Shown: positions 28,127 to 50,282 of the stretch, piece by piece
Layout: every line of letters begins with the position of its first letter
Numbering within the stretch: position 1 is the first letter of the stretch
From: Simplicispira hankyongi
GTDB taxonomy: Bacteria; Pseudomonadota; Gammaproteobacteria; Burkholderiales; Burkholderiaceae_C
Direction of reading: 5' to 3'
Assembly: GCF_003570885.1 (NCBI RefSeq)
Contig: NZ_QXJC01000010.1
Coordinates: forward strand, 1-64,000
DNA length: 64,000 nucleotides
The notes under the pieces: model-generated
Databases searched by the model: none
What the model was told of the DNA's origin: nothing
The model's input: only the letters and a program-made list of their open reading frames with translations
Translations under genes and position numbers: made by a program

Positions 28127-29863
28127 TCAGTGCCCTGAGGCGCCCGAAGCTCCCAGGCCGGTTTCTGAACGCACTTGCTGCGCCGGGAAGGCGGCGCGCT
28201 CGCGGGCGGCGTTGGCGCTCTTGTCGGTGATCGAGAACAACCAGATGCCGATGAAGCCGATGGCCATCGAGAACAGGGCTGGCGAGGTGTAGGGGAACAA
28301 TGCCGAGCCCTTGGCGTGGCCGAGTGTGGCTTCCCAGACCGAGGGCGACACGATGGTCAGACCGACCGACGAGATCAGCCCCAGGAAACCGCCCACCACC
28401 GCGCCGCGCGTGGTGCAGTTCTTCCACAGCACCGACAGGAACAGCACCGGGAAGTTGGCCGAGGCTGCCACTGCAAAGGCCAGCGACACCATGAAGGCAA
28501 TGTTCTGCTTCTCGAAAACAATGCCCAGCACCACGGCCACGATGCCCAGGCACACGGTGGTGATGCGCGAAACACGCAGTTCAGAGGCGCTGTCGGCCTT
28601 GCCCTTCTTGACCAGCGTGGCATACAGGTCGTGCGACACGGCCGAGGCGCCCGAGAGCGTCAGGCCGGCCACCACGGCCAGGATGGTGGCAAATGCCACG
28701 GCCGAGATGAAGCCGTAGAACACGTTGCCGCCTACCGTCTTGGCCACCAGCACCGCCGCCATGTTGGCCGTGCCGGCGCCGCCGTGGATGACGCCCTTGG
28801 CCACGTCTGCCATTTCAGGGTTGGTCAGCACCAGGGTGATGGCACCAAAGCCGATGATGAAGATCAGCACGTAGAAGTAGCCGATCCAGGTGGTGGCCCA
28901 CAGCACCGACTTGCGCGCCTGCTTGGCATCGGGAACGGTGAAGAAGCGCATCAGGATGTGCGGCAGGCCGGCCGTGCCGAACATCAGTGCCATACCGAAC
29001 GAGATGGCAGAGATCGGGTCCTTGATGAAGCCGCCCGGGCCCATGATGGCCAGGCCTGCCTTCGCAGCCTCTTCAGGTGTTTTGCCGGTGTTGGCTGCGA
29101 TGGCGGCGCGTACTTGCACGCCCTTGGCGAACAGCGCTTCGGGGCTGAAGCCGTATTGGGCCAGCACCATGTAGGCCATGAAGGTCACGCCCGCCAGCAG
29201 CAAACAGGCCTTGATGATCTGCACCCAGGTGGTGGCGGTCATGCCGCCAAACAGCACGTAGACCATCATCAGCACGCCGACGATGACCACGGCCATCCAG
29301 TACTCCAGGCCAAACAGCAGCTTGATGAGCTGGCCGGCGCCAACCATCTGCGCGATCAGGTAGAAGGCCACGACGATCAGTGTGCCCGAAGCCGCGAACG
29401 CGCGGATGGGGCCTTGCTGGAAGCGGTAGCCGGCCACGTCGGCAAAGGTGAACTTGCCCAGGTTGCGCAGGCGTTCGGCCATCAGGAAGGTGATGATGGG
29501 CCAGCCCACCAGGAAGCCGATCGAGTAGATCAGGCCGTCGTAGCCCGAGGCCATGACGGCGGCGGAAATACCCAGGAACGACGCGGCCGACATGTAGTCG
29601 CCGGCAATCGCCAGGCCGTTCTGGAAGCCCGTGATACCGCCGCCAGCGGTATAGAAGTCAGACGCCGATTTGGTCCTGGACGCGGCCCACTTGGTGATCC
29701 ACAGCGTGAGCAACACAAAGCCGGCGAACATCGAGATCGCCGTCCAGTTCGTCGCCTGCTTGGCGACGTCACCCAGGTCGGGGCCGGCGGCTTGCGCAGC
29801 GCCTGCGGCAGACAGGGCCAGCAGCGCCAGCAGCGCCGCGCGGGAAGTGAAGCGGGCGTTCAT
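28127..29863 (-). CDS. actP: Cation/acetate symporter
   Basis: A 578-residue sodium:solute symporter. An N-terminal leader ([15 protein letters not shown]) is followed by about 13 membrane segments. [30 protein letters not shown] is the SSS signature region, and [27 protein letters not shown] is typical of ActP. It imports acetate and other short carboxylates. Its start overlaps the DUF485 gene (ATGA), the usual yjcH-actP arrangement. Confidence 0.93.
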
Positions 29864-32858: not shown

Positions 32859-33077
32859 CGGTCGGTTCTCCATTGGCTTTTTTGCAGGGAACGAGTTTGC
32901 CATGCTGCCGCAGCGAAGCGAGAGGGAAATCCCAGGGCATCCGGCCGCAGGGCGGCGGGTGCTTGCGCGGGGCATGGCCGGCGGTTCGCGCACACCTCCG
33001 CAGCGGCCAAGACCCTGCACCAACATCGGTCGAAGCCCATCCCTAGAATGTTTCGCCCACGCTCCACGCTTCCTTCC

Positions 33078-36000: not shown

Positions 36001-39000
36001 AGCCGACCACCGGCCTGCACTTTGACGACATCGCGAAGCTGATGCGCGCGTTTGGGCGCCTGCTCGATGGCGGGCATTCGCTCATCGTTATCGAACACAA
36101 CCTGGACGTGATCCGCGCCAGCGATTGGCTCATCGACCTCGGGCCGGAAGGCGGCGACGGCGGTGGCGAACTGGTGGCAGAGGGCCCGCCGGACGTGGTG
36201 CGCGAGCACCCGCGCTCGCATACGGGCGCGGCGCTGCGCGAGTACGTGGATGCGCTGGGGGCGGGTGCCGGCGTGTCGGATGCGATGTCCATGCTCCTGA
36301 ATCCGAAGCGGCTGGCGCAGGCGCAACGTGCGCTGGCGGCCAAAAACAGCATAGAAATCGTCAACGCGCACGAGCACAACCTGCAAGGCCTGTCGGTAGA
36401 GATCCCGCGCGGGCGCTTCAACGTCATTACCGGCGTCAGCGGTTCGGGCAAGTCCACGCTGGCGTTCGACATTCTGTTCAACGAAGGCCAGCGCCGCTAC
36501 CTCGAGTCGCTCAACGCCTACGCGCGCAGCATCGTGCAACCGGCGGGCCGGCCGGAGGTCGATGCCGTCTATGGCATTCCGCCGACGGTGGCCATTGAGC
36601 AGCGGCTCTCGCGCGGCGGGCGCAAGAGCACGGTGGGCACCACCACCGAGGTCTGGCACTTCCTGCGCCTGCTGTACGTCAAGCTCGGCACGCAGCACTG
36701 CATCCACGATGGCGCGGCGGTCGAGCCGCAAACACCCGAGCGGATCGCCGCGCAGCTGATGCGCCAGTTCCGTGGCCAGCACATCGGCCTGCTGGCGCCG
36801 CTGGTGGTGGCGCGCAAGGGCGTGTACACCGAACTGGCGGATTGGGCCCGGCCGCGTGGCTACACGCATCTGCGCGTCGATGGCAACTTCGTTCCCGTCA
36901 CGCCGTTCGCGCGGCTGGACCGCTTCAAGGAGCACACCATCGAGCTGCCGGTGTGGAGCCTGGATGTCACGCCGAAGAACGAAGCGCTCTTGCGCGAGCA
37001 GCTCGCCCGCGCGCTGGACCTGGGCAAAGGTGTGGTGCATGTGCTGAGTGGTCTGGACGGCCTCGCGCAAACGCTGGGCGATGGCCTGCCCACGGCGGGC
37101 ATCGGCCAGTTGCAGGTGATTTCCACCAAACGCGCCTGCCCGGTCTGCGCCACTTCGTACCCCGAGCTTGACCCGCGCCTGTTCTCGTACAACAGCAAGC
37201 ACGGCTGGTGCCCCGATTGCGTGGGCACGGGCGTCAAGCTCAGCAAGGAACAGCGCAAGGTCTTTGACGATTCCGTGCAGGCCGACGACCAGAAGGGCCG
37301 CGAGCAGACCTTTGCCGAGCCCGACATGGACGATGTGCAAGACCTGGCCTGCCCGACCTGCGCCGGCACGCGCCTGAACCCCACCGCGCGCGCCGTGCAG
37401 TTTGCTGGCGTGGCGATCACGGATCTGGCACAGCGCTCGGTGAAGGACATGCACGCCTGGGTGCAGGGGCTGGACGCGGTGGTGGATACCCTTGCCCAAA
37501 CCCCTCCGGCCTTCGCGCTCAGCACGCGTGAAGCCGCCATTGCCCGCGACCTGCTGCCCGAGATTGCCGGGCGCTTGTCCTTTCTTGAGCAAGTGGGCCT
37601 GGGCTACCTCACGCTGGAGCGCGGCGCGCCCACGCTCAGCGGCGGCGAGGCGCAGCGCATTCGCCTGGCGGCGCAGCTCGGCAGCAACCTGCAGGGGGTG
37701 TGCTACGTGCTCGACGAGCCCACCATCGGCCTGCACGCGCGCGACAACCAGATGCTGTTGGGTGCGCTGCGCCAGCTCAGCAACCACGGCAATACGCTGG
37801 TGGTGGTGGAGCACGACGAAGAGACCATCCGCGCGGCCGACCACATCATCGACATCGGCCCCGGCGCGGGCAAGCGCGGCGGCACGCTGGTGGCAGAGGG
37901 TACGGTGCAGGACCTTACCGCTGCCGAAGGCTCGCAGACCGGCCGCTACCTGTTGCACGCCATGCGCCACCCGTTGCAGGCGCGCAGAGGGGTGGCGGAG
38001 CCGCGCAAGCCAGAGCAGGAGAATGCTCCTATTTCGATAGCTTCTAGCGCAAATGGGATAAGCGCTGGAGGCCAAAAATACTCTAAATCTGAGGCGCCCC
38101 TCACGTGGCTGACGGTGCACGGCGCGCAGTTGCACAACCTGCAGAACGTCACCGCCCACGTGCCGCTGGGCCGCCTCGTTGCCATCACCGGCGTCAGCGG
38201 CTCGGGCAAATCAACGCTCGCGCGCGACGTGCTGCTGACCAACGTGCAGGCCTGGGTGCAGCAGCGCTCGACCAAGGCCGGGCGCGATGCCATGGACGCG
38301 GGCAAGGCGCCAGCGCTGGTGGGCTGCACGGGGCTCTCGGGCTTCGAGACCATCGACCGCGTGCTGGAAGTGGACCAGACGCCGATTGGCAAAACCCCGC
38401 GTTCCTGTCCCGCCACCTACATCGGCTTCTGGGACACGGTGCGCAAGCTGTACGCCGAAACACTCGAAGCCAAAGCGCGCGGCTACGCCGCCGGGCGCTT
38501 CAGTTTCAACACCGGTGCGGGCCGCTGCGCGGTGTGCGAAGGGCAGGGCGTGCGCACCATCGAGATGAGCTTTCTGCCCGACGTGAAAGTCCCCTGCGAA
38601 GCCTGCCACGGCGCGCGCTTCAACCCCGAGACGCTGGCCGTCACCTGGCGCGGCAAGAGCGTGGGTGAGGTGCTGCGGATGGAGGTGGACGAAGCGGTCG
38701 ATTTCTTCGCTGCCATGCCCGCCATCAGCCACCCGCTGCAATTGCTCAAGGACGTGGGCCTGGGCTACCTGACGCTGGGCCAGCCCAGCCCCACGCTCAG
38801 CGGCGGCGAGGCGCAGCGCATCAAGCTCGTCACCGAGTTGACCAAGGTGCGCGACGAGGTAGGTCGGCGGGGCCAGAAGGCGCCGCACACGCTCTACGTG
38901 CTGGACGAGCCCACCGTCGGCCTGCACATGGCCGATGTGGACCGCCTGATTCGCGTGCTGCACCGCCTGGTGGGCGCGGGCCACAGCGTGGTCGTCATCG

Positions 39001-39161
39001 AGCACGACCTGGACGTGATTGCCGAAGCCGACTGGGTGCTGGACCTGGGCCCCGAGGGTGGCAGCGGCGGCGGCCACATCGTGGCGGCCGGCACGCCGGA
39101 GGACGTGGTGCGCGCCGGAACGCCGACCGGGGTGGCGCTGGCGCCGGTGCTGGCGCGCTGA
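33078..39161 (+). CDS. uvrA: Double-length UvrA (tandem UvrA fusion)
   Basis: A 2,027-residue protein, twice the normal UvrA length, with two UvrA-like halves. Four Walker A motifs (about residues 36, 719, 1119 and 1705; GPSGSGKSS or GVSGSGKS) each pair with a signature LSGGE(A/V)QR (about 567, 936, 1520 and 1907). Zinc-finger CxxC pairs occur in both halves (CPTCGGSGFEH...CPDCDG; CAVCEGQGVRT...CEACHG). UvrA recognises DNA damage with UvrB. Four in-frame repeat insertions are described separately. ATG 33048 could add ten residues, but MTHDDTGSIRI (33078) is where homology begins. Large UvrA proteins of this kind occur in betaproteobacteria; whether it is the main or an accessory UvrA here is not known. 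Confidence 0.9.
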   Translation: MTHDDTGSIRIFGARQHNLKNLDVVLKTGELTVVTGPSGSGKSSLVFDTLYAEGQRRYVETFSAYARQFLDRMDKPAVDKVEGVPPAIAIDQTNPVRSSRSTVGTMTELNDHLKLLFARAGQLFDRETAQPVRHDSPETIYAELLARSGPEDRLVVTFPVELPANTSAEQVTEWLSASGFTKIQAEREVAGVKLLDVVADRFRMASVEKSRAIEAIEVALKRSGRMAVYRLVENAEAEIWQFSTGLHCPDSNLRYSEPLPSMFSFNSPAGACETCRGFGRVIGVDYGLVIPDPKKTLRAGAIKTLQTPAWKEAQDDLMRHAEAAGIPRDTAWNRLTPEQQQWVIGGSPNWNGKWNQQWYGIARFFEYLESKAYKMHIRVLLSKYRSYTPCPTCAGARLKTESLLWRIGSKADADAVLPPSPCRAAPSGDSPLGGQQGHDSAERGGFRSKRFMPQGVAWSRAQLEALPGLCLHDLMLLPLSRVRSFFERLSKDTTDLIASSAGGTSARGQFGSNIEANELVVPAASAVRESGDAQALKLLHEEIGTRLKYLDEVGIGYLTLDRQSRTLSGGEVQRINLTTALGTSLVNTLFVLDEPSIGLHPRDMHRITEAMLRLRDAGNTLVVVEHDPAVMLAADRVLDFGPGPGERGGRIVFDGTPDELRRADTLTGQYLGGRKHVGLPFARKVTEATPRLILEGAREHNLKNLTVDFPLQRLVTVTGVSGSGKSSLIQDVLAPALLRHFGKATETPGAHDRLLGADHLSDVVFVDQSPIGKTARSNPVSYVGAWDAIRELFAAAPLARERGYTASKFSFNSGDGRCPTCGGSGFEHVEMQFLSDVYLRCPDCDGKRYRPEILEVTITRKKLGSDSNFPADADQVKELESDPNYSISLSVADVLALTVSEAVALFANDREVLRALAPIVEVGLEYVKLGQPVPTLSGGEAQRLKLAGFLAGAAKSQSSSRQPLARRGTLFLFDEPTTGLHFDDIAKLMRAFGRLLDGGHSLIVIEHNLDVIRASDWLIDLGPEGGDGGGELVAEGPPDVVREHPRSHTGAALREYVDALGAGAGVSDAMSMLLNPKRLAQAQRALAAKNSIEIVNAHEHNLQGLSVEIPRGRFNVITGVSGSGKSTLAFDILFNEGQRRYLESLNAYARSIVQPAGRPEVDAVYGIPPTVAIEQRLSRGGRKSTVGTTTEVWHFLRLLYVKLGTQHCIHDGAAVEPQTPERIAAQLMRQFRGQHIGLLAPLVVARKGVYTELADWARPRGYTHLRVDGNFVPVTPFARLDRFKEHTIELPVWSLDVTPKNEALLREQLARALDLGKGVVHVLSGLDGLAQTLGDGLPTAGIGQLQVISTKRACPVCATSYPELDPRLFSYNSKHGWCPDCVGTGVKLSKEQRKVFDDSVQADDQKGREQTFAEPDMDDVQDLACPTCAGTRLNPTARAVQFAGVAITDLAQRSVKDMHAWVQGLDAVVDTLAQTPPAFALSTREAAIARDLLPEIAGRLSFLEQVGLGYLTLERGAPTLSGGEAQRIRLAAQLGSNLQGVCYVLDEPTIGLHARDNQMLLGALRQLSNHGNTLVVVEHDEETIRAADHIIDIGPGAGKRGGTLVAEGTVQDLTAAEGSQTGRYLLHAMRHPLQARRGVAEPRKPEQENAPISIASSANGISAGGQKYSKSEAPLTWLTVHGAQLHNLQNVTAHVPLGRLVAITGVSGSGKSTLARDVLLTNVQAWVQQRSTKAGRDAMDAGKAPALVGCTGLSGFETIDRVLEVDQTPIGKTPRSCPATYIGFWDTVRKLYAETLEAKARGYAAGRFSFNTGAGRCAVCEGQGVRTIEMSFLPDVKVPCEACHGARFNPETLAVTWRGKSVGEVLRMEVDEAVDFFAAMPAISHPLQLLKDVGLGYLTLGQPSPTLSGGEAQRIKLVTELTKVRDEVGRRGQKAPHTLYVLDEPTVGLHMADVDRLIRVLHRLVGAGHSVVVIEHDLDVIAEADWVLDLGPEGGSGGGHIVAAGTPEDVVRAGTPTGVALAPVLAR
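34345..34418 (+). repeat. GGCCGCCCCAAGCGGC-type repeat inserted in uvrA
   Basis: GGGCCGCCCCAAGCGGCGAC, then AGCCCCCTTGGAGGGC and GAGCGTGGGGGCT. It has two hairpins (GCCGC-CCCAA-GCGGC; GCCC...GGGC). I recognise this as another short repeat common between genes in Comamonadaceae. Here it is read through as about residues 423-447 of UvrA (RAAPSGDSPLGGQQG...), rich in Gly, Ser and Ala and probably a loop. Confidence 0.72.
34554..34620 (+). repeat. Dispersed repeat, copy 6, inside uvrA
   Basis: GATTTGATAGCTTCTAGCGC, then AGGTGGAAC, then AAGCGCTAGAGGCCAATTTG. Read as LIASSAGGTSARGQFGSN near residues 493-514, between the zinc-finger region and the first signature motif of the first half. Confidence 0.9.
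35662..35730. repeat. GGGGTCAGACTCC-type REP pair inside uvrA
   Basis: A 21-bp perfect inverted repeat (35662-35682 and 35710-35730; outer part AATTGGGGTCAG) with a 27-base spacer. The motif is of the REP type often linked to RAYT (Y1-type) transposases; no such gene is in the window. It is read through as LGSDSNFPADADQVKELESD (about residues 862-881). Confidence 0.9.
38025..38090 (+). repeat. Dispersed repeat, copy 7, inside uvrA
   Basis: ATTTCGATAGCTTCTAGCGC, then AAATGGGAT, then AAGCGCTGGAGGCCAAAAAT. Read as ISIASSANGISAGGQKYSK in the same frame as copy 6, in the linker before the fourth Walker A motif. Confidence 0.9.
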
Positions 39162-39508: not shown

Positions 39509-39769
39509 ATGAAGGAAGACAGAAGCAGTCAGGCCTACTGGAAGGCCACGCTAAGCCTGTTGTTCAAGATATTGATTCTCTGGTTTCTTGTGTCGTTCGG
39601 TGCCGGCATTTTGTTCGCAGACATGCTGAACAGCATCCATCTGGGGGGCTATCCGCTCGGGTTCTGGTTTGCCCAGCAGGGCTCCATCTACATCTTCATC
39701 GCGCTGATTTTTTATTACGCCAAGAAGATGGGTGACATTGACCGCCGCTTCAACGTGCAAGAAGAGTGA
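39509..39769 (+). CDS. DUF4212 small membrane subunit of a symporter
   Basis: An 86-residue protein with two membrane segments (about 15-38, LSLLFKILILWFLVSFGAGI; 52-70, FWFAQQGSIYIFIALIFYYA) and the family ending AKKMGDIDRRFNV. It lies 13 bp before the larger symporter gene. DUF4212 proteins accompany ActP-like permeases, as DUF485 does with ActP. Function is inferred from this pairing. Confidence 0.88.
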   Translation: MKEDRSSQAYWKATLSLLFKILILWFLVSFGAGILFADMLNSIHLGGYPLGFWFAQQGSIYIFIALIFYYAKKMGDIDRRFNVQEE

Positions 39770-39782: not shown

Positions 39783-41588
39783 ATGGATCTCCAAACCACC
39801 ATCTACGTCTTCGTCGGTCTGAGCTTCGCGCTTTACATCGGCATCGCCGTCTGGGCGCGTGCCGGCTCGACGAGCGAGTTCTACGCCGCGGGCGGCAGCG
39901 TTCACCCCATTACCAACGGCATGGCCACGGCCGCCGACTGGATGAGCGCCGCGTCGTTCATTTCCATGGCCGGCCTGATCTCCAACATGGGCTACGGCGG
40001 CGCGCTGTTTCTCATGGGCTGGACGGGCGGCTACGTGCTGCTGGCCATGCTGCTGGCGCCCTACCTGCGCAAGTTCGGCAAGTTCACGGTGCCGCAGTTT
40101 ATTGGTGACCGCTTTTATTCCAAGGGCGCCAGCACCATTGCCGTGGTCTGCCTGCTGATCGCCTCGCTCACCTACATCATTGGACAGATGACGGGCGTCG
40201 GCATCGCGTTCGCACGTTTCCTTGGCGTTTCCAGCGACACCGGCATCTACGTGGGCATGGCCATCGTGTTCGCCTACGCGGTGTTTGGCGGCATGAAGGG
40301 CATTACCTACACCCAGGTGGCACAGTACATCGTACTGATTCTGGCGTTCACGGTGCCGGCGATCTTTATCTCGCTGGCGCTTACCGGGAACGTCCTGCCG
40401 CAGATTGGCCTGGGGGGCGATTACCGCGGCACGGATATGACGCTGCTGGCCAAGCTCGACAGCGTGGTGACCGACCTGGGCTTTGGCAAGTACACCACCT
40501 CGGTGCCGGGCAGCACGCTGAATATGTTCATGTACACGCTGTCGCTCATGATTGGCACGGCTGGCCTGCCGCACGTCATCATGCGGTTCTTCACCGTGCC
40601 TTCGGTGAAGGACGCACGCCTGTCGGCCGGCTGGGCGCTGGTCTTCATCGCCATTCTGTACACCACGGCGCCGGCGGTGGGTGCCATGGCCAAGCTGAAC
40701 CTGCACGCCACGGTGAACACCGCCGTGAAAGCGGGCGGCGATTTGTTCGCTCCTGAAGCCAGCATCAAGGCCGACTCGCAGCCTGACTGGATGAACCGCT
40801 GGGAAAAGACCGGCTTGCTCAAGTGGACGGACAAGAACGGCGATGGCCGCATCCAGTACTACAACGACAAGACCAAAGACAAGGGCGTGCTCGACAAAGC
40901 GGCTGCTGCCGGCTGGAAGGGCAACGAGCTGATGGTCAACCCCGACATCATCGTGCTGGCCAACCCCGAAATCGCACTGCTGCCCAACTGGGTGATCGGC
41001 TTGGTGGCTGCGGGCGGTCTGGCTGCGGCGCTGTCGACGGCGGCCGGTTTGCTGATGGCAATCTCTTCGGCGGTGTCGCACGACCTGGTGAAGAGCGTCT
41101 TCAATCCAGACATCAGCGAGAAGAAAGAGTTGCTGGCGGGCAAGATTTCGATGGCGGTGGCCATCGTTGTTGCCGGCTACCTCGGTCTGAACCCGCCAGG
41201 TTTCGCGGCCGGGACGGTGGCGCTGGCTTTTGGTATCGCGGCCAGTTCGCTGTTCCCTGCGATCATGATGGGAATTTTCAGTAAGAAGATGAACAAGGAA
41301 GGAGCCATGGCCGGCATGTTGGCGGGCTTGTTCTTCACCCTGTTCTATGTGTTTGCCCACAAGGGTATCTTCTTCATCAAGGGCACCGAGTACCCGGACC
41401 TGATCGGCGGCGCCAACAGCTTCTTCGGCATCACGCCGGAAGCCATCGGTGCCGTTGGCGCTGCGGTGAACTTCCTGGTGGCTTTCCTGGTGGACAAGGT
41501 GACGGCGCCTCCGCCAGCGCATATCCAGGCCATGGTCGAAGCGGTGCGCATTCCGCGCGGCTCCAAACTGGTCGGCGGGGCACACTAA
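39783..41588 (+). CDS. ActP-like sodium:solute symporter with EF-hand-like loop
   Basis: A 601-residue SSS-family permease with about 13 membrane segments (STSEFYAAGGSVHPITNGMATAADWMSAASF; MIGTAGLPHVIMRFFTVPSVKDARLS). It is the VC2705-like type paired with DUF4212. A hydrophilic insert near residues 325-400 contains W-T-D350-K-N-G-D-G-R-I-Q, close to a calcium-binding EF-hand loop but lacking the acidic residue at loop position 12. Likely solutes are acetate, propionate or similar acids. Downstream genes suggest that its transport is coupled to sensing. Confidence 0.9.
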   Translation: MDLQTTIYVFVGLSFALYIGIAVWARAGSTSEFYAAGGSVHPITNGMATAADWMSAASFISMAGLISNMGYGGALFLMGWTGGYVLLAMLLAPYLRKFGKFTVPQFIGDRFYSKGASTIAVVCLLIASLTYIIGQMTGVGIAFARFLGVSSDTGIYVGMAIVFAYAVFGGMKGITYTQVAQYIVLILAFTVPAIFISLALTGNVLPQIGLGGDYRGTDMTLLAKLDSVVTDLGFGKYTTSVPGSTLNMFMYTLSLMIGTAGLPHVIMRFFTVPSVKDARLSAGWALVFIAILYTTAPAVGAMAKLNLHATVNTAVKAGGDLFAPEASIKADSQPDWMNRWEKTGLLKWTDKNGDGRIQYYNDKTKDKGVLDKAAAAGWKGNELMVNPDIIVLANPEIALLPNWVIGLVAAGGLAAALSTAAGLLMAISSAVSHDLVKSVFNPDISEKKELLAGKISMAVAIVVAGYLGLNPPGFAAGTVALAFGIAASSLFPAIMMGIFSKKMNKEGAMAGMLAGLFFTLFYVFAHKGIFFIKGTEYPDLIGGANSFFGITPEAIGAVGAAVNFLVAFLVDKVTAPPPAHIQAMVEAVRIPRGSKLVGGAH

Positions 41589-41752: not shown

Positions 41753-42121
41753 ATGGTTTTTGATGTCAGTGTCGCCTTGACCTGGATTCTCTATATCGCC
41801 TTGTTCCCGATTGCCTTCTTCTGGTTTCGGCGCGCCTGGCGGATTGCCTTTCGCCGGGATTTTTCGGAGGTGGCGCTCAAGGGGGGTGAGTCACCCCCCA
41901 ATGCTGAAAGGTATGCCCCCTATGCCATGGCCATCAATCTGGTTGCAGGCAGCGTGGCGGTGGTGGTGATCGCGGGCGTGGCTCTGGGGCAACTCGACTA
42001 CAACACGTGGACGGCCATGGCGGGCAGCACCATCTGGTGCAAGTTTTTTCTCGATTTCGCCATCTCGCGCCATGCGCACATGCAGCGCGGCCCAAAGCCG
42101 CAGCGCCGCGCGGGGAAGTAA
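41753..42121 (+). CDS. Unrecognised small membrane protein
   Basis: A 122-residue protein with two hydrophobic stretches (about 6-26, SVALTWILYIALFPIAFFW; 62-80, AINLVAGSVAVVVIAGVAL) and basic ends. I do not recognise the family. GGGAG lies 6 bases before ATG 41753. A 19-base perfect palindrome within the gene (41881-41899) encodes part of GGESPPN. It lies between the symporter and the histidine kinase, in the same direction as both. Confidence 0.62.
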   Translation: MVFDVSVALTWILYIALFPIAFFWFRRAWRIAFRRDFSEVALKGGESPPNAERYAPYAMAINLVAGSVAVVVIAGVALGQLDYNTWTAMAGSTIWCKFFLDFAISRHAHMQRGPKPQRRAGK

Positions 42122-42199: not shown

Positions 42200-42451
42200 G
42201 TGAGCCACACGCTGCGTTCCCAGCGCCTTGGTGCCTTGTTTGCCGCAGGTTGGCTGCTGCTGAACTTTCCGCTGCTGGGTTTGTGGGACAGCGACCTGAG
42301 CGTGTTGGGCATACCGCTGTTTCCGCTGGCGCTGTTCGTGATCTGGGGCGCCATGATCGCCACCGTCGCCTGGTGGATGGAGTCGCGCCCAGGCCTTGAA
42401 ACGCCTGCGGCGTCCGAGCCCGAGCTGCCGCAGCCGCAGGTGCGGGATTGA
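42200..42451 (+). CDS. Small DUF3311-like membrane protein
   Basis: An 83-residue protein with two membrane segments (about 12-30 and 40-60; IPLFPLALFVIWGAMIATVAW) and a proline-rich tail. GTG 42200 has ACGGAGA upstream. Such small proteins often stand next to SSS-type proteins; here the next gene is a kinase whose sensor domain is an SSS permease, so it may be its partner subunit. Family assignment is tentative. Confidence 0.7.
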   Translation: MSHTLRSQRLGALFAAGWLLLNFPLLGLWDSDLSVLGIPLFPLALFVIWGAMIATVAWWMESRPGLETPAASEPELPQPQVRD

Positions 42452-42456: not shown

Positions 42457-45210
42457 ATGCTGCCAGCGCCGCTTGTCATTGGCACCTCGCTGGCCTACCT
42501 GCTGCTGCTCGTCGGCGTCGCCTACTGGGCCGACCGCCGGGCCGCCGTGCGCCGCTCGGTCATTGCCCGGCCCTCTGTGTACGCGCTGTCGATGGCGGTG
42601 TATTGCACCGCCTGGACGTATTTCGGCAGTGTCGAGCGCGCCGCAACGGGTGGCATGTGGTTCCTGCCCATCTACCTGGGGCCTACGCTGGCCATGGTGC
42701 TGGGCTGGACGATGCTGCGCAAGATGATTCGCATTGCCAAAACGCACCGGATCACCTCGATTGCCGATTTCATTGCCAGCCGCTACGGCAAAAGCCAGTT
42801 GCTGGCAACGCTCGTGACGTTGGTGGCCGTGGTGGGCATCGTTCCCTACATTGCGCTGCAGCTCAAAGCCGTGTCCTCGGGCTATGCGCTGCTCACGTCC
42901 GGCAGCGCGGTGGCGCCGGCGCACCTGCACTGGAGCCAGGACAGTGCCTTTTATGTCGCCCTCTCTCTGGCAGGCTTCGCTATCGTGTTTGGTGCGCGCC
43001 ACCTCGATACCACCGAGCGCCACGAGGGCATGGTGGCGGCCATTGCCTTTGAGTCGCTGATCAAGCTGGCGGGCTTTCTGTGCGTGGGGGTGTTTGTCGT
43101 CTATGGTCTGTTTGGTGGCCTGGGCGACATCTTTGCCCAGGCGCGGGCGCGGCCTGATCTGGCGGCGCTGTTGCATGCCGAGCAGGGCGGGGCGTATTCC
43201 TGGGCGCGCTGGATGGGGCTGATGGTGCTGGCCCTGTGCGCCGCGCTGGTGCTGCCACGGCAATTCCAGGTCATGGTGGTGGAGAACGTGCACGAAGACC
43301 ATGTGCGCCGCGCGAGCTGGCTGTTTCCGCTCTACCTCTTGCTGATCAACCTCTTCGTGCTGCCCATTGCCCTGGGCGGTTTGCTGTATTTCAGCAGTGG
43401 CGTGCACAACCCCGAGCACTTTGTGCTCTCGCTGCCCATGGCCGCAGGGCAGAACGCGCTGGCGCTGTTTGTCTTCGTCGGCGGGCTGTCGGCCGCCACC
43501 GGCATGGTCATCGTCGAAACCGTGGCCGTCTCCACCATGGTCAGCAACGAGCTGGCGCTGCCGCTGCTGCTGCGGCTTCGCCTGCTGGACGCCGCCCACC
43601 AGCCGAGCGATTTCACGCGCCCGCTGCTCATGATCCGACGCGCCGCCATCGTGGGCGTGCTGCTGCTGGGCTACGTGTACTTCCAACTGGCGGGGGACGC
43701 GTATGCGCTGGCAAGCATTGGCCTCATCAGCTTTGCTGCCGTGGCCCAGTTTGCCCCGGTACTGCTGGGCGGCATGTACTGGCGCGGCGGCACGCGCGCG
43801 GGCGCCCTGGCCGGGTTGATCGTGGGTTTTGGCGTGTGGGTCTACACACTCATGCTGCCGTCGATTGCCAAGTCGGGCTGGCTGGACGCGGGTTTCCTCA
43901 CGGCCGGGCCGTGGGGCATCGCCTGGCTGCGGCCCGAATCGCTGTGGGGCCTGCAGGGCCTCGACAGCCTGACGCACTCGCTGTTCTGGAGCTTGCTGAC
44001 CAACTGCGCGGCCTATGTGGTGGTGTCGCTCTGGCGCGCGCCGTCCGGCCGCGAAGCCAGCCAGGCGCTGCTGTTTGTCGACGTCTTCCGGCGCGGCACG
44101 GCGCAAACACCGGTGTTTTGGCGCGGGCGCGCCGACGCCGCCGAACTCAAGCGCCTTTGCGAGCGTTTTCTCGGCGCGGAAAAAACCCGTGAGCTGTGGC
44201 GTGGCTATGCCAAGCAGGCCGGCTTGCCCGCGGACCAGGCCCTGGTCCCGGACGCACGCCTGGTGCAGTTTGTCGAAGCGCAGCTGGCAGGGGCCGTGGG
44301 CAGCGCCTCGGCACGGGTGCTGGTGGCTTCGGTCTCTGACGAGGAGACGCTCTCGCAAGGCGACGTGCTGGCCATGCTGGAAGAGGCGTCGCAACTGCGC
44401 AGCTACTCGCGTGCGCTGGAAACCAAGTCGCGCTCGCTGGAGAAGGCCACCAGTGAGCTGCGCAGTGCGAACGAACAGCTCAAGAGCCTGGACCGCTTGA
44501 AGGACGATTTCATGTCCTCGGTGACACACGAGCTGCGCACGCCGCTGACGTCGATACGCGCGCTGGCAGAGATTCTGCAGGGCGATGCCGAGGTGCCGCC
44601 GCAGCAGCGCCAGCGCTTTGTCGACATCATCGTGCAGGAGACCGAGCGCCTCACCCGGCTGGTCAACCAGGTGCTCGACATGGCCAAGATCGAGTCCGGG
44701 CACATTGACTGGCGCTTGGCCGACATCGACGTGCGCGCCCTGCTCGAAAAAGCCGTGGCCACCACGGCGGCGCTGCTGAGTGATCGGGGCGCAGAGATGC
44801 AGCTCGACCTTCCTGACGCCTTGCCGCCCCTGCGCGCCGACCCGGACCGCTTGCTTCAGGTGCTGCTGAACCTCATTTCCAACGCCGCCAAGTTCGTGCC
44901 ACCGCAGGGTGGGCGCGTGCAACTGCGCGCGCGCGGCGATGGGCAAGGTCTGACCGTGTGCGTGCAAGACAATGGCCCTGGTGTGCCGGCGGGCCACGAA
45001 CGCCTCATCTTTGACCGGTTTCATCAAGCGGGTGGGCCCACGCCGGGCGGGCAGGGCACCGGTCTGGGTCTGCCGATCAGCCAGCACATCGTGGCGCACT
45101 TTGGCGGCCGCCTGTGGCTGGAGCCGCCTGCCCCTGGTGCGCCGTCCGGCGCCTGCTTCTGCTTCTGGCTGCCCTGGCACCCCGCGTTTTCTGGAGACAC
45201 TGCCCCATGA
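42457..45210 (+). CDS. Hybrid sodium:solute symporter-histidine kinase (CbrA-like)
   Basis: A 917-residue sensor kinase. Residues 1-530 are a 13-helix SSS-type permease domain (VYALSMAVYCTAWTYFGSVERAATGGMWF). A coiled coil (about 640-680) leads to the HisKA domain with phospho-acceptor H691 in SVTHELRTPLTS, and the ATPase domain has the N box LLNLISNAAKF, DNGPGVP and GQGTGLGLPIS. Unlike CbrA I see no clear PAS domain. TTG 42448 would overlap the previous stop; ATG 42457 is the simpler start. It overlaps its response regulator gene (ATGA). It may couple solute flux to phosphorylation. Confidence 0.92.
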   Translation: MLPAPLVIGTSLAYLLLLVGVAYWADRRAAVRRSVIARPSVYALSMAVYCTAWTYFGSVERAATGGMWFLPIYLGPTLAMVLGWTMLRKMIRIAKTHRITSIADFIASRYGKSQLLATLVTLVAVVGIVPYIALQLKAVSSGYALLTSGSAVAPAHLHWSQDSAFYVALSLAGFAIVFGARHLDTTERHEGMVAAIAFESLIKLAGFLCVGVFVVYGLFGGLGDIFAQARARPDLAALLHAEQGGAYSWARWMGLMVLALCAALVLPRQFQVMVVENVHEDHVRRASWLFPLYLLLINLFVLPIALGGLLYFSSGVHNPEHFVLSLPMAAGQNALALFVFVGGLSAATGMVIVETVAVSTMVSNELALPLLLRLRLLDAAHQPSDFTRPLLMIRRAAIVGVLLLGYVYFQLAGDAYALASIGLISFAAVAQFAPVLLGGMYWRGGTRAGALAGLIVGFGVWVYTLMLPSIAKSGWLDAGFLTAGPWGIAWLRPESLWGLQGLDSLTHSLFWSLLTNCAAYVVVSLWRAPSGREASQALLFVDVFRRGTAQTPVFWRGRADAAELKRLCERFLGAEKTRELWRGYAKQAGLPADQALVPDARLVQFVEAQLAGAVGSASARVLVASVSDEETLSQGDVLAMLEEASQLRSYSRALETKSRSLEKATSELRSANEQLKSLDRLKDDFMSSVTHELRTPLTSIRALAEILQGDAEVPPQQRQRFVDIIVQETERLTRLVNQVLDMAKIESGHIDWRLADIDVRALLEKAVATTAALLSDRGAEMQLDLPDALPPLRADPDRLLQVLLNLISNAAKFVPPQGGRVQLRARGDGQGLTVCVQDNGPGVPAGHERLIFDRFHQAGGPTPGGQGTGLGLPISQHIVAHFGGRLWLEPPAPGAPSGACFCFWLPWHPAFSGDTAP

Positions 45211-45587
45211 CCCAAAAGAAGATTCTGATTGCCGACGACGAACCCAACATCGTGGTGTCGCTTGAATACCTGCTGCAGCGCGAGGGCTACGCCGTGAGCA
45301 TCGCGCGCGACGGTCAGCAGGCCCTGGACGCCATCGCCCGCGAGGCGCCGGACCTGGTGCTTCTCGATGTGATGATGCCCATCAAATCGGGCTTCGAGGT
45401 ATGTGCCAGCGTGCGGAGTGATGCGGCATTGGCGCATACGCGCATCCTCATGCTGAGCGCCAAGGGGCGCGACACCGACCTGGTCAAAGGCATGGCCCTG
45501 GGCGCGGACGACTACATGACCAAGCCCTTTGCCACGCGCGAACTGGTGGCGCGCGTGGCCGAGCTGCTCGCCAAGGAACGGCCATGA
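45207..45587 (+). CDS. Single-domain response regulator
   Basis: A 126-residue receiver domain with no output domain. Acidic pair D10/D11, phospho-acceptor D54 in LVLLDVMMP, and K106 in YMTKPF are all present. It overlaps the kinase gene by 4 bp, so it is surely its partner. With no DNA-binding domain it must act by protein contact, perhaps on the downstream sensor-exonuclease fusion or in a phosphorelay. Confidence 0.92.
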   Translation: MTQKKILIADDEPNIVVSLEYLLQREGYAVSIARDGQQALDAIAREAPDLVLLDVMMPIKSGFEVCASVRSDAALAHTRILMLSAKGRDTDLVKGMALGADDYMTKPFATRELVARVAELLAKERP

Positions 45588-45643
45588 GCCAAGGTGTGCC
45601 AACCCGTCGGCCTGCGGAACGCTTGACGGAGATCGCACCGTGA
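45584..45643 (+). CDS. Possible 19-residue coupling peptide
   Basis: ATG 45584 overlaps the response-regulator stop (ATGA), and its own stop overlaps the GTG start of the exonuclease gene (GTGA). The peptide MSQGVPTRRPAERLTEIAP has no family. It could simply carry ribosomes from one gene to the next. Real translation is unproven. Confidence 0.35.
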   Translation: MSQGVPTRRPAERLTEIAP

Positions 45644-47811
45644 AACGCAGCGACCCGCGGCTGATCGCCGCCATTGCGCTGGCCGGCCTGGTGATGGCGC
45701 TGTGGCTGGTGCTGATGTCGGCCATCGTCTGGTCCACGCTCGGCGCGTCCGAGCGCGAGGCCGTGGGCGAGGTGCTGGCGGGCCGGATCGCGCTGGTGTT
45801 TGTCGGCTGGGTGCTGGGGCTGATTGCCGTGGCGGCAGTGTTGCGCGTGCTGCACCAGCGCTATGTCGGCGCGCCGCACCGTTTGCTGGAGGAAGCCCGC
45901 GTCGTGCTGGCGGCGCGCCGGCCGCAGCAGCTCAAACCGCGCGGCACGCGCGAGATGCAGGCGCTGGCGGTGGCGGTGAACGAGCTGGCCGCGCAGCGCG
46001 ACCGCCTGCGTGCCGACATGGACGCGCAGGTCACGCAGGCCAGCGAGCGCGTGCAGCAGGAGAAAGACCGCCTGGCCGCACTGATGGCCGAACTCCACCA
46101 GAGCGTGGTGGTGTGCAACCACGCCGGGCGCATCCTGCTCTACAACCAGCGCGCACGCCAGGCCTTTCGCGCGCTCTCGCAGGGGCCGCAACTGGCCGGT
46201 GGTGCCGAGTTGCTCGGCATTGGCCGCTCGATTTACGCGGCGCTGGAGCGCCAGGTGCTGGCCCATGCTTTCGAGCGCATCCAGCAGGCCGTGGCCAAGG
46301 GCGATGCCCGGCCGACAGCGCAGTTCGTCACCGCGGTGGCGGGCGGGCAGTTGCTGCGCGTGCAGGTGGCGGCGGTGCGCGCCAGCCAGGGCGTGTTGGG
46401 CCGAAGCACCGAGGTCACCGGCTTTGTGCTCATGCTCGACAACGTGACCGAGAGCGTGGCAGAGGAATCCGCGCGCGACCAGTTGCTGCATGGCCTGACA
46501 GAAGGCAGCCGTGCGTCGCTGGCCAACATTCAGGCGGCGGTGGACATGCTGGGCTACCCCGACATCGAACCTGCCATGCGCGAGCGCTTTCTGGGCGTGG
46601 TGCGCGAAGAGGTGGCGTCCATGGGCAAGCGGGTCACCGACCTTGCGCAGCGCAGCGCCCAGCGCCTCAAGACCCGCTGGCCGCTCGAAGACATGCTGGG
46701 CGCCGACTTTGCCGCCGCCGCGCAGCGCCAGCTCGGCGCGCGCTGCGGCTGCCCGGTGACACTGGACGCGATCGACCCGGTGCTCTGGCTCAAGGTGGAC
46801 AGCTACACGCTGCTGCAGGCGCTCACCTACCTGGGCACGCGCCTGGTGGACGAGTTCGAGGTGCGCTTTCTGCAACTGCGCCTGGCGCGCGCGGGCGCGC
46901 ACGCCCAGCTTGACCTGGTCTGGGGCGGCCAGGCCATGAGCAACGAAACCGTGATGAGCTGGGAGATGGACGCCATGCGCTTTGGCACCGAGCGCACGCC
47001 GCTCTCGGTGCGCGACGTGGTCGAGCGCCATGGCGGCGAGATGTGGTTCGAGCGCGAGCGGGTGCGCCACCAGGCGCTGTTTCGCTTTCTGCTGCCGCTC
47101 GCCAGCAGCCAGCCAGCGCCAGGCAGTCTGGCGGCGGCCGACCTGCCCAGTCGCCCGGAGTTCTACGATTTCGACCTGTTCCAGAGCATGGAAGAGGGCC
47201 GCGAACTCGAAGACCGGCCGCTCGCCGAACTGGCCTACACCGTGTTCGACACCGAAACCACGGGCCTGAACCCCTCGGGGGGCGACGCCATCATCCAGAT
47301 CGGCGCGGCGCGCATCGTCAACGGCAAGCTGCTGCGCCAGGAGACCTTCGACCAATTGGTGAACCCGGGCCGCAGTATTTCGGCCGAATCGATTCCGATC
47401 CACGGCATCAGCCAGCACATGGTGGAGGGCCAGCCGGGCATTGGTGAGGTGCTGCCGGTGTTCCACGCCTTCGCGCACGACACCGTGCTGGTGGCGCACA
47501 ACGCTGCCTTCGATATGAAGTTCCTGCAGTTGCAGGAGGAGGCCACGGGCACCGTCTTCCGCCAGCCGGTGCTCGACACCTTGTTGCTCTCGGCCGTGGT
47601 GCACCCCCACCAGGAGTCGCACCGCCTCGAAGCCATCGCGGAGCGCTTCAACGTCGCGGTGCTGGGCCGGCACACGGCGCTGGGCGACGCGTTGGTGACG
47701 GCAGAGATCTGGCTGCGCCTGATCCCGCTGCTGGCCGAGCAGGGCATCCACACCTTGCGCCAGGCGCGCGAAGCGGCGCAGAAGACGTATTACGCGCGGT
47801 TGAAGTATTGA
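45640..47811 (+). CDS. Degenerate sensor kinase fused to DnaQ-type 3'-5' exonuclease
   Basis: A 723-residue fusion. Two N-terminal membrane helices (about 9-32 and 45-70) and a HAMP-like/coiled-coil linker precede a PAS-like region (HQSVVVCNHAGRILLYNQRARQAF), then a dimerisation domain resembling HisKA but without the phospho-accepting histidine motif (HGLTEGSRASLANIQAAVDML) and a degenerate ATPase region. From about residue 530 is a DEDDh exonuclease: D537 and E539 in FDTETTGLNP, then HGISQHMV, AHNAAFDMKF and HTALGDALVTAEI. GTG 45640 has ACGGAGA upstream. The substrate may be short RNA/DNA or a signal nucleotide; the membrane sensor suggests regulated nuclease activity. Confidence 0.88.
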   Translation: MKRSDPRLIAAIALAGLVMALWLVLMSAIVWSTLGASEREAVGEVLAGRIALVFVGWVLGLIAVAAVLRVLHQRYVGAPHRLLEEARVVLAARRPQQLKPRGTREMQALAVAVNELAAQRDRLRADMDAQVTQASERVQQEKDRLAALMAELHQSVVVCNHAGRILLYNQRARQAFRALSQGPQLAGGAELLGIGRSIYAALERQVLAHAFERIQQAVAKGDARPTAQFVTAVAGGQLLRVQVAAVRASQGVLGRSTEVTGFVLMLDNVTESVAEESARDQLLHGLTEGSRASLANIQAAVDMLGYPDIEPAMRERFLGVVREEVASMGKRVTDLAQRSAQRLKTRWPLEDMLGADFAAAAQRQLGARCGCPVTLDAIDPVLWLKVDSYTLLQALTYLGTRLVDEFEVRFLQLRLARAGAHAQLDLVWGGQAMSNETVMSWEMDAMRFGTERTPLSVRDVVERHGGEMWFERERVRHQALFRFLLPLASSQPAPGSLAAADLPSRPEFYDFDLFQSMEEGRELEDRPLAELAYTVFDTETTGLNPSGGDAIIQIGAARIVNGKLLRQETFDQLVNPGRSISAESIPIHGISQHMVEGQPGIGEVLPVFHAFAHDTVLVAHNAAFDMKFLQLQEEATGTVFRQPVLDTLLLSAVVHPHQESHRLEAIAERFNVAVLGRHTALGDALVTAEIWLRLIPLLAEQGIHTLRQAREAAQKTYYARLKY

Positions 47812-47812
47812 G

Positions 47813-47878
47813 ATTGCTACTAGGTTTATAGCTGGTAGCGCTTATGTATCAAGCGCTGGAGGCCAAAAATGGCCTGAA
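47813..47878 (+). repeat. Dispersed repeat, copy 8 (intergenic)
   Basis: GTTTATAGCTGGTAGCGCTT, then ATGTATC, then AAGCGCTGGAGGCCAAAAAT and GGCCT. It lies between the convergent exonuclease and DUF294 genes. Confidence 0.9.
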
Positions 47879-47982
47879 TGTGTGCTGTGTCGAGGTCCCC
47901 GCGTGCGCCGCGCCCGGCATTCCGGGATGGAGGTCGGGGCACGGGTTTCGCTGCGCGGCTCCTGCGAGATCGTAAACACGTT

Positions 47983-49872
47983 CTAAAACCGCCCCGCCTG
48001 GTAGCGTTGGGCCAGCACGTCCTGCACCGTTTGCACCACCTGGAAGGCCTGCTTGAGGTGGCTGCGCTCGAAGTTCGAGAGTTCCTCCAGCGCCAGGAAG
48101 TTGTCGGGCGCCTGGCCCTGGGCCAGTTGCCGCGCCTGGTGTGCGATGCGCAGCTTGGAGATGAATTCCAGCGCCTCGCGCAGGTCGCGGGCGCTTTGCG
48201 CGCTGACTTCACCGGAGGGGGCGGCCACTTCCAGCCGGTCGTGCGTGTTCACTTGCGGCATTCCACCGGCCAGGGCGTACAGGCGCGCCAGGTCGACGAT
48301 GGGCACGATGCCGGTGTGCTTGAGGTCAATGGTGCCCGGGTGCTCGCCGCCGCGGATGCGCGCAATGGTGCCAAACAAGCCCAGCGGCGGGCGGTGCTTG
48401 AGCGCGTTGCCCACCATGTGCGCCAGGAACAGGCTGTTGCCGCGCGTGTTCGCCAGCAGCTCGTGGCGCAGGCTGTCGAGCAGCTCGGCGCGGCCGTGGA
48501 TGGCGCGCAGGTCAAAAAACACGCAGGTCAGCATCAGCGCCATCGGCTCGGGTGTGTCCACCCATTGGCGAAAGTACTCGGCCCAACGTGCGCGCGGCTG
48601 GCGCCATTGGTCGGTCATGGCCATCATCTCGCCGGGGCAGTGGATGTAGCCACACTCGGCCAGGCCGTCGCAGACGAAGCGCGAAAACTCGCGGAACCAG
48701 GCGCCGTGCAGCACTTCGTCGTAGTCGTCGCCAAGCACCAGGCAGTTGTCCTGGTCCGACAGCGCCGTTTGCTCGCTGCGCGCCTGCGAGCCTGCCGCCA
48801 CCCACACATAGTCCACCGGCGCCGGGCCCATGCGTTCCTTGGCAAGCTGGATCAGGCGCACGGTGATGGCGTCGGTGATGGCGGTGACGATGTGGCCCGT
48901 GCTGTAGGCGCTGGTGCCCGCATCGACCAGGTGGCGCTGCAAGGCCTTGAGGCGCGTGGTCGCTTTGGCCAGGCCCGCCACCGAGGTCTGCTTGTAAATC
49001 TCGCCGGCCAGGACGACGGCCGAGGTGCTTTGCTGCTCGGCCAGGTCGGTTGCCGTGACCATGCCGACGATGCGCGCCCCCTCCAGCACCGGCAGGTGGT
49101 GGATATTGGCGCGCGCCATCGTCAGCAGCGCTTCGAACGCCGGGCTTTGCGCCTGCAGCGTATGGGGGTCGAGCGTGGCGATCTCGCGCACCGGTCGCGC
49201 GCTGTCCCTACCGGTGGCCAGCACACGGTTGCGCAGGTCGCGGTCGGTCACCAGGCCCAGCAGCGCAGCGCTGTTGCCACCGCCGTCCTCGATCAGCAGC
49301 ACGCACGAGACGCGCTGCGCGTGCATGTGCTCGGCCACGGTGCGGATCGGTGTGTCCATGGGCAGGCACACCGGCGCACGTTGCACCAGGGCACGGACCG
49401 GCATGGCCAGCCGGTTGAGGCGCGCGCCGTCCTCGCCGGGCGCACTCTGCTGCTGTGCAAGGTCGGCCGCGGTGGGCAGCGAGGGGAAGTAATACTCCAG
49501 CGCGCCATGTGCCTGGCACAACTGCAACAGCACCTGCGGCGCCAGCCAGGCCACGGCGCCATCGGTCGCGGCCGTCGCCTGCCAGGTGGCCAGGTGGCGT
49601 GCGGGCGTGGCGCCAAAACCGAACAGCTCGCCGCGCTGCAGGCGTACGCCGTGGTCCAGGTCGGGATCGTGCAGGTCGATGGCGCCCGCGAGCACCATGC
49701 CCAGCCGGGTATGCAAGCCGCCCTGGGGCAGCAGCATGGCGCCCTCGGTGCTTGTCTGCTGCTCCCACTGCGTGGCGAGCACTGCCTGCTCGCCAGCGGT
49801 GAGCGTGCCCCACACACGGTGGTCGGCCAGCAGAGCGGCCAGGTCGTCGGGAGAGGGCGGAGCAGTAGGCAT
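47983..49872 (-). CDS. DUF294 nucleotidyltransferase-like protein with CBS pair
   Basis: A 629-residue protein. Residues about 10-140 resemble a degenerate cyclic-nucleotide-binding domain (GGLHTRLGMVLAGAIDL...GELFGFGA). Two CBS domains follow (about 155-290: PVCLPMDTPIRTVAEHM...GLVTDRDLRNRV; FEALLTMARANIHHLPVLE). The DUF294 nucleotidyltransferase core has GSQARSEQTALSDQDN, and DUF294_C ends the protein. CBS domains usually bind adenine nucleotides. In Pseudomonas and Vibrio such genes stand beside a DnaQ-like nuclease and an ActP-type symporter, as here. ATG 49872 is the first methionine with family support. Confidence 0.9.
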   Translation of the reverse strand: MPTAPPSPDDLAALLADHRVWGTLTAGEQAVLATQWEQQTSTEGAMLLPQGGLHTRLGMVLAGAIDLHDPDLDHGVRLQRGELFGFGATPARHLATWQATAATDGAVAWLAPQVLLQLCQAHGALEYYFPSLPTAADLAQQQSAPGEDGARLNRLAMPVRALVQRAPVCLPMDTPIRTVAEHMHAQRVSCVLLIEDGGGNSAALLGLVTDRDLRNRVLATGRDSARPVREIATLDPHTLQAQSPAFEALLTMARANIHHLPVLEGARIVGMVTATDLAEQQSTSAVVLAGEIYKQTSVAGLAKATTRLKALQRHLVDAGTSAYSTGHIVTAITDAITVRLIQLAKERMGPAPVDYVWVAAGSQARSEQTALSDQDNCLVLGDDYDEVLHGAWFREFSRFVCDGLAECGYIHCPGEMMAMTDQWRQPRARWAEYFRQWVDTPEPMALMLTCVFFDLRAIHGRAELLDSLRHELLANTRGNSLFLAHMVGNALKHRPPLGLFGTIARIRGGEHPGTIDLKHTGIVPIVDLARLYALAGGMPQVNTHDRLEVAAPSGEVSAQSARDLREALEFISKLRIAHQARQLAQGQAPDNFLALEELSNFERSHLKQAFQVVQTVQDVLAQRYQAGRF

Positions 49873-49946: not shown

Positions 49947-50282
49947 ATGAAAGCCTCTCCCCAAACCGTTCTGTGGCTGCAGCCGGGCGCACCGCCCAAG
50001 CCGGCGCTCGGTGCGCCCTGCAATGGCTGTGGCTTGTGCTGCCTGAGGGCGCCCTGCCCACTGGGCACGCTGGTCTCGCGCCGGCGCACCGGGGCCTGTG
50101 CGGCGCTGCGCTGGGACGGCGCTGAGCAGCGCTATCTCTGTGGGCTGATCAGCCACCCAGCCGAATTGACGGGCTGGCACCGCCCCTGGTTGTTGGCCAT
50201 GGTCCAGCGGGTGGCGCGGCGGTACATCGCCGCTGGCGATGGCTGTGATGCAGACATCGACGTGATTCGCACAGGCAAATAG
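49947..50282 (+). CDS. Cysteine-rich YkgJ-like protein
   Basis: A 111-residue protein with a cluster CNGCGLCCLRAPCPLG (residues about 25-40) and two more cysteines (GACAALRW, YLCGLI), the kind of set that binds zinc or an iron-sulphur cluster in YkgJ-like proteins. Function unknown. The stop codon lies at the edge of a dispersed repeat. It is divergent from the DUF294 gene, 74 bp away. Confidence 0.72.
   Translation: MKASPQTVLWLQPGAPPKPALGAPCNGCGLCCLRAPCPLGTLVSRRRTGACAALRWDGAEQRYLCGLISHPAELTGWHRPWLLAMVQRVARRYIAAGDGCDADIDVIRTGK

Follow-up and report, generated by a model that had tools for sequence, protein, structure and literature searches.

A 64,000-nucleotide stretch of Simplicispira hankyongi DNA (contig NZ_QXJC01000010.1, positions 1 to 64,000; the window) contains three adjoining genes for a symporter-like sensor histidine kinase (HK), a lone receiver, and a membrane protein in which a degenerate histidine kinase is fused to a DEDDh exonuclease (the fusion). 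A sequence-only reading of this DNA had recognized these genes and is sharpened here, as comparative evidence points to a link between the receiver and the dead kinase of the exonuclease. Across the sequences compared, constraint on the DHp hairpin of the fusion is linked to the presence of the receiver. The arrangement is probably a two-component pathway in which the HK signals to the lone receiver and the receiver, by docking on the dead DHp, would gate the fused exonuclease. The genes and domains concerned are as follows.

42457..45210, + strand: symporter-like sensor HK, catalytic residues intact (Pfam HisKA and HATPase_c)
45207..45587, + strand: lone receiver without output domain, phospho-acceptor Asp intact (Pfam Response_reg)
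45640..47811, + strand: membrane PAS/pseudo-histidine-kinase/DEDDh exonuclease fusion, GTG start (RNase_T, E 1.1e-34; AlphaFold model; fold search)
46102..46443, + strand: PAS-like domain of the fusion, residues 155-268 (model secondary structure and conserved motifs; boundaries by eye)
46444..46656, + strand: DHp-like hairpin of the fusion, residues 269-339, the proposed receiver docking site (model; constraint follows the receiver)
46501..46503, + strand: Glu288 codon at the phospho-His position of the fusion (alignment)
46687..47100, + strand: degenerate CA-like domain of the fusion, residues 350-487 (model; alignment)
47191..47808, + strand: DEDDh exonuclease domain of the fusion, residues 518-723, PolC-type fold (model and fold search; catalytic residues)

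As judged by eye from the sequence and an AlphaFold model (mean pLDDT 83.5, pTM 0.57), the fusion comprises two membrane helices, a long helix, the PAS-like domain, the DHp hairpin, the CA-like domain, a short low-confidence linker, and the DEDDh exonuclease. In Foldseek searches, the front part matched WalK-type kinases and others that we take to be VicK-type, with NifL at rank 19, DivL (4q20) at rank 48, and phytochrome A also matched. The degenerate HK modules of NifL and phytochrome type function as regulated scaffolds, and the HK-like module of the fusion resembles them (NifL-NifA, 9qq6, and phytochrome A are among its fold matches); we know of none that is fused to a nuclease. The rear part matched PolC and epsilon exonucleases (2p1j, 9qpc, 2ido), with a root mean square deviation of 1.6 from the PolC exonuclease 9qpc over 189 alignment columns. 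After thinning of 160 exonuclease open reading frames to 146 at 95% identity, the five catalytic residues (Asp, Glu, Asp, His, Asp) are retained in all 146. The domain therefore has the fold and all the catalytic residues of PolC-type and epsilon DEDDh exonucleases but, unlike these, is tethered to the membrane, lacks a polymerase, and is preceded by PAS and pseudokinase domains.

The kinase part is degenerate, as the sequence-only reading had proposed. The phospho-acceptor His is found in none of the 146 fusions, five of which have a gap at this position, and the N, G1, and G2 boxes are gone, as seen by eye on the alignment; the DHp and CA-like domains persist in the model. Because the His and the ATP-site motifs are lost, the fusion is a pseudokinase, and an active kinase was rejected on the basis of the missing His. 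The acceptor position is occupied by Glu (106), Asp (10), Gln (3), Ala (2), or Val (1) in the 122 loci with a receiver, by Asp (7), Glu (5), a gap (4), Arg (1), Leu (1), or Gln (1) in 19 loci without one, and by Glu (3), Asn (1), or a gap (1) in five truncated fusions; L161 has no receiver nearby and a non-acidic residue. It is acidic in 115 of the 121 full-length fusions with a receiver in the locus; L034 is left out of this count because it has no DHp, and the Glu aligned there is artefactual. Arg at H+3, Ala or Gly at H+7, and Ala at H+12 are each present in 121 of 121 fusions with a receiver in the locus, as compared with 5, 5, and 4 of 8 exonucleases from genomes without HK and receiver.

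The relationship between the DHp and the receiver was examined by identity and by branch length. Family, order, and class are those of the source genome, taken as GTDB Burkholderiales (order) and Gammaproteobacteria (class). Six loci in the family and order lack a receiver (L171, L180, L181, L195, L204, and L206); the controls were 21 of 34 receiver-bearing loci, chosen for an exonuclease identity no higher. In the five of the six that have a DHp, identity to the family consensus was 0.31 for DHp α1 as compared with 0.75 in the controls (p 0.0007), and 0.33 as compared with 0.56 for α2 (p 0.001). The values for the other domains, without receiver and in controls, were approximately unchanged: HAMP 0.48 and 0.48, PAS 0.68 and 0.70, CA 0.60 and 0.59, and exonuclease 0.74 and 0.77. 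On a tree with a topology built without the DHp, the ratio of DHp to other-domain tip branches had a median of 3.1 (n = 6) in lineages without HK and receiver versus 1.08 (n = 42) in those with them (p 0.0004), and a median of 0.27 for tips with HK and receiver elsewhere in the genome (5 of 7 tips past the length filter). That filter removed tips with a mean other-domain branch below 0.08 from the controls and the in-trans group, and not from the group without HK and receiver. The stem ratios were 3.54, 3.74, and 3.04 for three clades without HK and receiver, and 0.63 and 0.81 for two that have them in trans. No such shift was found with PAS, CA, or exonuclease as the test domain (p 0.09, 0.45, and 0.12). 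L204 is outside the tree, as its DHp is missing, and L194, on a 4,987-base contig of a genome that is 74% complete, is outside the identity test and inside the rate test.

Genomes in which the fusion has an intact H-box but no local receiver were predicted to have HK and receiver elsewhere, and both were found in four of four cases (G083 and three Accumulibacter genomes; HK 56-63% and receiver 59-63% identity). Of three further genomes, G414 and G544 have both genes in a second locus (L155 and L156), and G030 has them in L028. In seven genomes (G151, G174, G189, G196, G311, G342, and G734) the DHp is altered or excised, and all seven lack an HK at E 1e-30 and a receiver above 48% identity; G102 and G610, without DHp and CA, have neither HK nor receiver, and in G471, whose exonuclease is 217 residues long, the only HK relative is at 37%. 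In G342, an in-frame deletion has removed just the DHp hairpin, and the PAS, CA, and exonuclease domains remain; G243, from the same genus, has the HK and keeps the hairpin.

These features are similar to those of DivL, in which the His is replaced by Tyr and DivK~P binds the response regulator docking interface; alphaproteobacteria without DivK are reported frequently to lack the DivL DHp-CA, as far as PMC4211667 describes them. The fusion likewise has an HK fold with the His replaced, and the presence of its DHp co-varies with that of a lone receiver, with L034 as the exception, so that in both systems a receiver would meet a pseudokinase without His. In contrast to DivL, which has Tyr, keeps other HK motifs, and acts on CckA, the fusion has Glu or Asp, has lost the ATP-site motifs, and carries a DEDDh exonuclease in cis. 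By analogy, the best explanation is that the fusion repeats the logic of DivK-DivL with a nuclease in place of CckA.

The HK itself appears to be competent. In the redundant set of 124 from which the gene-order and HK and receiver residue counts were drawn, the His, N, G1, and G2 motifs are retained in 106 of 107 HK homologues, and the phospho-acceptor Asp in 109 of 110 receiver homologues, with one gap in each. As the sequence-only reading had noted, the response regulator has no output domain and overlaps the kinase gene, the ATGA at its start being common to the HK stop; the HK is thus not a hybrid, since the receiver is a separate gene. Pfam SSF did not match the N-terminal part of the HK even at E 0.1, and no STAC domain was among the Pfam matches for this part, although no search was aimed at STAC. 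The window ActP matches the HK homologues of L026 and L028 at 34-36% identity over about 131 residues, and an ActP query also matches the membrane half of the HK itself. In L034, the sole locus with a receiver but no DHp or CA, Glu replaces the first of two acidic residues of the receiver. An OmpR-type response regulator lies between DUF294 and DUF4212 in L030 (13052-13726, - strand) and is a possible second target of the HK; a second receiver match at a like place on the opposite strand is present in L025, L031, L033, L034, and L069, and is OmpR-type where checked (L030).

Many families share the gene order, and acetyl-CoA synthetase (acs) is often nearby. Among 103 three-gene loci of the redundant set, 99 run HK, receiver, exonuclease, and the other 4 run receiver, exonuclease, HK. 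In 200 family genomes, both an HK orthologue and the fusion were found in 40, the fusion alone in 6, the HK alone in 2, and neither in 152 (Fisher p 3.7e-33), with the two 200-genome draws taken as identical because they share genome handles, and with HK matches in G335 and G235 (43-45% identity) not counted among the 42 HK-positive genomes. Of the two with HK alone, G256 has a contig that ends inside the HK gene, and G166 is genuine.

We propose that the signal for the symporter-like kinase is a small carbon acid of the acetate or pyruvate type, as its gene neighbors and its kinship to CrbS/MxtR suggest. Because all of its catalytic residues are intact, the HK would phosphorylate the lone receiver, which would then dock on the membrane-anchored fusion at its DHp-like hairpin, the step to which the comparative evidence points. 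We infer that docking gates the attached DEDDh 3'-5' exonuclease. As its output, the pathway would probably trim RNA or short oligonucleotides from the 3' end at the membrane; the DUF294 nucleotidyltransferase is a speculative partner. Lineages without HK and receiver keep the exonuclease, PAS, and CA domains, and the enzyme would therefore work without the receiver; for this reason the receiver is more likely to be a tuner or brake than an obligatory activator. A fuller version of the proposal, which we advance tentatively, is that the phosphorylated receiver, acting through the repurposed dead kinase, controls a membrane exonuclease that rewrites the pool of RNA or oligonucleotides during growth on acetate or pyruvate, with the DUF294 nucleotidyltransferase opposing or complementing it.

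Several observations weigh against docking on the DHp. In L034, the DHp and CA are absent although HK and receiver are both present, and G166 has HK and receiver with no fusion adjoining them and no match in the family search. Mutual information with average product correction (117 pairs, effective number of sequences 68) gave the DHp a share of 0.06-0.07 of the top receiver-exonuclease pairs versus a background of 0.11, whereas the HK-receiver positive control gave 0.14-0.16 versus 0.06. The short linker motif is also slightly lower in identity without the receiver (0.71 versus 0.87, p 0.046). The tip ratios of L180 and L195 (1.13 and 1.83) are within the normal range of 0.40-2.14, only their shared stem being fast, and the ratios of two in-trans tips, L025 and L153 (1.27 and 1.35), are not low. 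G020 and G618 have no HK or receiver and a fast DHp stem but a recognizable H-box, and L171, without a receiver, retains the acceptor Glu. Furthermore, the p-values ignore shared ancestry; the lineages without HK and receiver number only about three to five, and some are split by weak forks.

One alternative is that the dead DHp is kept for heterodimerization with the HK, in the style of RetS-GacS, so that the fusion regulates the kinase or the reverse and the receiver is simply the ordinary partner of the kinase. The DHp is a dimerization domain, HK and exonuclease co-occur, and HK and receiver are usually missing together, so that relaxation of the DHp fits this arrangement too. We nevertheless consider it unlikely. 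In the four loci in which the HK lies on the far side, the receiver is still upstream of the exonuclease, and the conserved H+7, H+11, and H+12 positions of the fusion DHp are the HK specificity positions of EnvZ. The genome of L113 has the receiver and an intact DHp with no HK orthologue found, which favors the receiver over the HK as partner, although this is a single 2.9-Mb metagenome-assembled genome and the absence could therefore reflect incompleteness.

A second alternative, which appears quite improbable, is that the lone receiver has become detached from the C terminus of a CrbS-like hybrid kinase and serves a distant transcription factor, with the exonuclease merely co-transcribed and regulated through its PAS domain. 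CrbS is described as a hybrid kinase whose receiver is C-terminal (PMC9100948, PMC5715377), a second receiver gene lies nearby on the other strand in L025, L030, L031, L033, L034, and L069, and the L034 fusion has neither DHp nor CA. However, this would leave the constraint on the DHp and its specific loss unexplained, and the receiver remains with the exonuclease when the HK moves. That the genes are only a co-inherited acetate set with no specific receiver-exonuclease interaction, the DHp decaying at random as a useless spacer, is very unlikely, for although none of the 146 fusions has the acceptor His (5 gaps) and L034, L163, and L205 live without DHp and CA, the H+3, H+7, and H+12 residues present in 121 of 121 are not expected of a spacer, and CA and PAS do not decay along with the DHp.

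Docking of the receiver on the fusion thus remains the preferred reading, and its setting is a locus with the following further genes.

39509..39769, + strand: DUF4212 small symporter subunit (Pfam PF13937, E 1.5e-32; NCBIfam TIGR03647)
39783..41588, + strand: VC_2705-family sodium/solute symporter, ActP-like (NCBIfam TIGR03648, 812 bits, cut-off 321)
41753..42121, + strand: small membrane protein sm1 (found by tblastn in 11 of 146 loci; no Pfam family passes its cut-off)
42200..42451, + strand: small membrane protein sm2, directly 5' of the HK (found by tblastn in 85 of 146 loci; no Pfam family passes its cut-off)
47983..49872, - strand: protein with CBS pair, DUF294 nucleotidyltransferase, and DUF294_C (Pfam), convergent with the HK, receiver, and fusion genes

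All genes named in the sequence-only reading are therefore present, by profile match and coordinates; it had placed them in 42457..49872, an interval that holds those from the HK to the CBS/DUF294 gene, but the DUF4212 and ActP-like symporter genes lie just upstream. It had not stated the strand of the CBS/DUF294 gene, which is the minus strand. Its suggestion of a conserved unit tied to acetate-type carbon is borne out by strong matches within the fetched stretches of the 146 non-redundant loci to DUF294 (93), ActP (80), acs (55), and fumarase (43). In the 85 loci with at least 6.5 kb on both sides, these number 53, 54, 44, and 35, respectively, and 73 of the 85 have at least one of ActP, DUF294, and acs. 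The window CBS/DUF294 translation carries GSQARSEQ...SDQDN, which contains the GSxxRxE...DxD active-site motif, and the GS, R, E, D, and D of the motif are retained at 132 of 132 tblastn places examined in relatives. L109 has two adjoining DUF294 genes (12120-15158), of which only the second carries CBS and cNMP-binding domains; two DUF294 places are also found in L023, and DUF294 lies on both sides of ActP in L251, L256, and L258.

The sensor part, used as query, finds matches in 16 of 150 order genomes at E 1e-5 (own genome included; some only through kinases) and in 46 of 200 family genomes at E 1e-15. With the exonuclease domain and strict thresholds, 13 of 274 class and 30 of 399 order genomes match (own included in both). 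A scan of named genomes gave at least 561 confirmed stretches, of which the best 80 were kept; these are mostly from Rhodocyclales (Thauera, Azoarcus, Aromatoleum, Zoogloea, and Dechloromonas), with three from Accumulibacter. A lack of conserved linkage beyond Comamonadaceae had been named as grounds for abandoning the proposal, and this objection fails because such loci are spread over many of the order's families and also occur in other parts of the class.

A second symporter in the window (28127-29863, - strand), 10 kb from the VC_2705-family symporter, is above the cut-off of NCBIfam NF006903, 'cation/acetate symporter ActP'. An open frame of 2037 residues (33048-39161, + strand) resembles a double-length UvrA, having UvrA interaction and DNA-binding domains along with several ATPase stretches, and a small Cys-rich open frame (49947-50282, + strand) lies 5' of a ccoN/ccoO-like pair and has tblastn relatives at L032, L089, and L115. 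A core pattern of our own for the CrbR-type ACTU motif matched the window 7 times as compared with 15 expected, with no match just upstream of the symporter pair.

The sequence-only reading had stated that similar symporter/DnaQ-like/DUF294 groups exist in Pseudomonas and Vibrio. DUF294_C is above cut-off in 80 of 274 class genomes and, among 20 of these loci that were fetched, a DEDDh exonuclease without a sensor part adjoins DUF294 in 14, 12 of which also have DUF4212-ActP. Such groups thus exist, but their standalone enzymes belong to a different DEDDh group: in an exonuclease tree, which does not include PP_0353 itself, 17 standalone enzymes from DUF294 loci and 21 fused ones are separate. 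From this tree, the same acetate-type locus therefore seems to have recruited two DEDDh groups. L160 and L173 each have a standalone-type exonuclease beside DUF294 together with a sensor-exonuclease with HK and receiver; this and the tree disfavor the idea that the fusion is a Pseudomonas-type exonuclease with an extra N terminus.

The sequence-only reading knew of no described mechanism, and here it has to be amended. In Pseudomonas putida, pp_0354 (CBS) and pp_0353 (exonuclease) form an operon with a promoter that is bound by ErdR, so that both are targets of MxtR/ErdR (CrbS/CrbR); on pyruvate, mutants of pp_0353, mxtR, erdR, and actP-I grow poorly and the pp_0354 mutant does not, and on acetate neither pp_0353 nor pp_0354 matters, as far as the account in PMC9927547 extends. 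Pflu5625 of P. fluorescens is reported to be a CrbR target without phenotype (PMC5715377). In P. aeruginosa, PA3232-PA3235 are reported to be raised during growth on propionate, and PA3233-PA3235 to fall after propionate addition (PMC9765439). The window system resembles CrbS/CrbR (MxtR/ErdR) in having a symporter-type kinase, and the targets given for that regulon include an ActP-type symporter, a CBS protein, and an RNase_T-family exonuclease (PMC9927547); in contrast, CrbS is a hybrid that acts through the LuxR-type CrbR, with no pseudokinase described. The HK also resembles the SLC5/STAC kinases CbrA and RpuS, in which a transporter-like membrane half is fused to an active kinase but, unlike CrbS and RpuS, it is not a hybrid, its partner is a lone receiver, and Pfam SSF does not match it. 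None of the titles and abstract openings in an open-access literature search on such a fusion or on a DUF4212/DUF294 mechanism described a pseudokinase-exonuclease fusion.

In many Betaproteobacteria and some relatives, a membrane sensor, presumably of small carbon acids, thus appears to be coupled to an enzyme that trims nucleic acids by way of a dead kinase domain that acts as a docking pad, which would be an uncommon output for a bacterial signal. The outputs of two-component systems are usually DNA binding, second-messenger enzymes, or protein contacts. If the proposal is correct, direct control of nucleic-acid turnover, by a receiver gating an exonuclease, would join these outputs. The fusion would also give DivL a counterpart as a dead kinase retained to sense a receiver, with natural deletions marking the docking module. 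For the P. putida exonuclease mutant, whose pyruvate phenotype is unexplained, the proposal would provide a testable frame.

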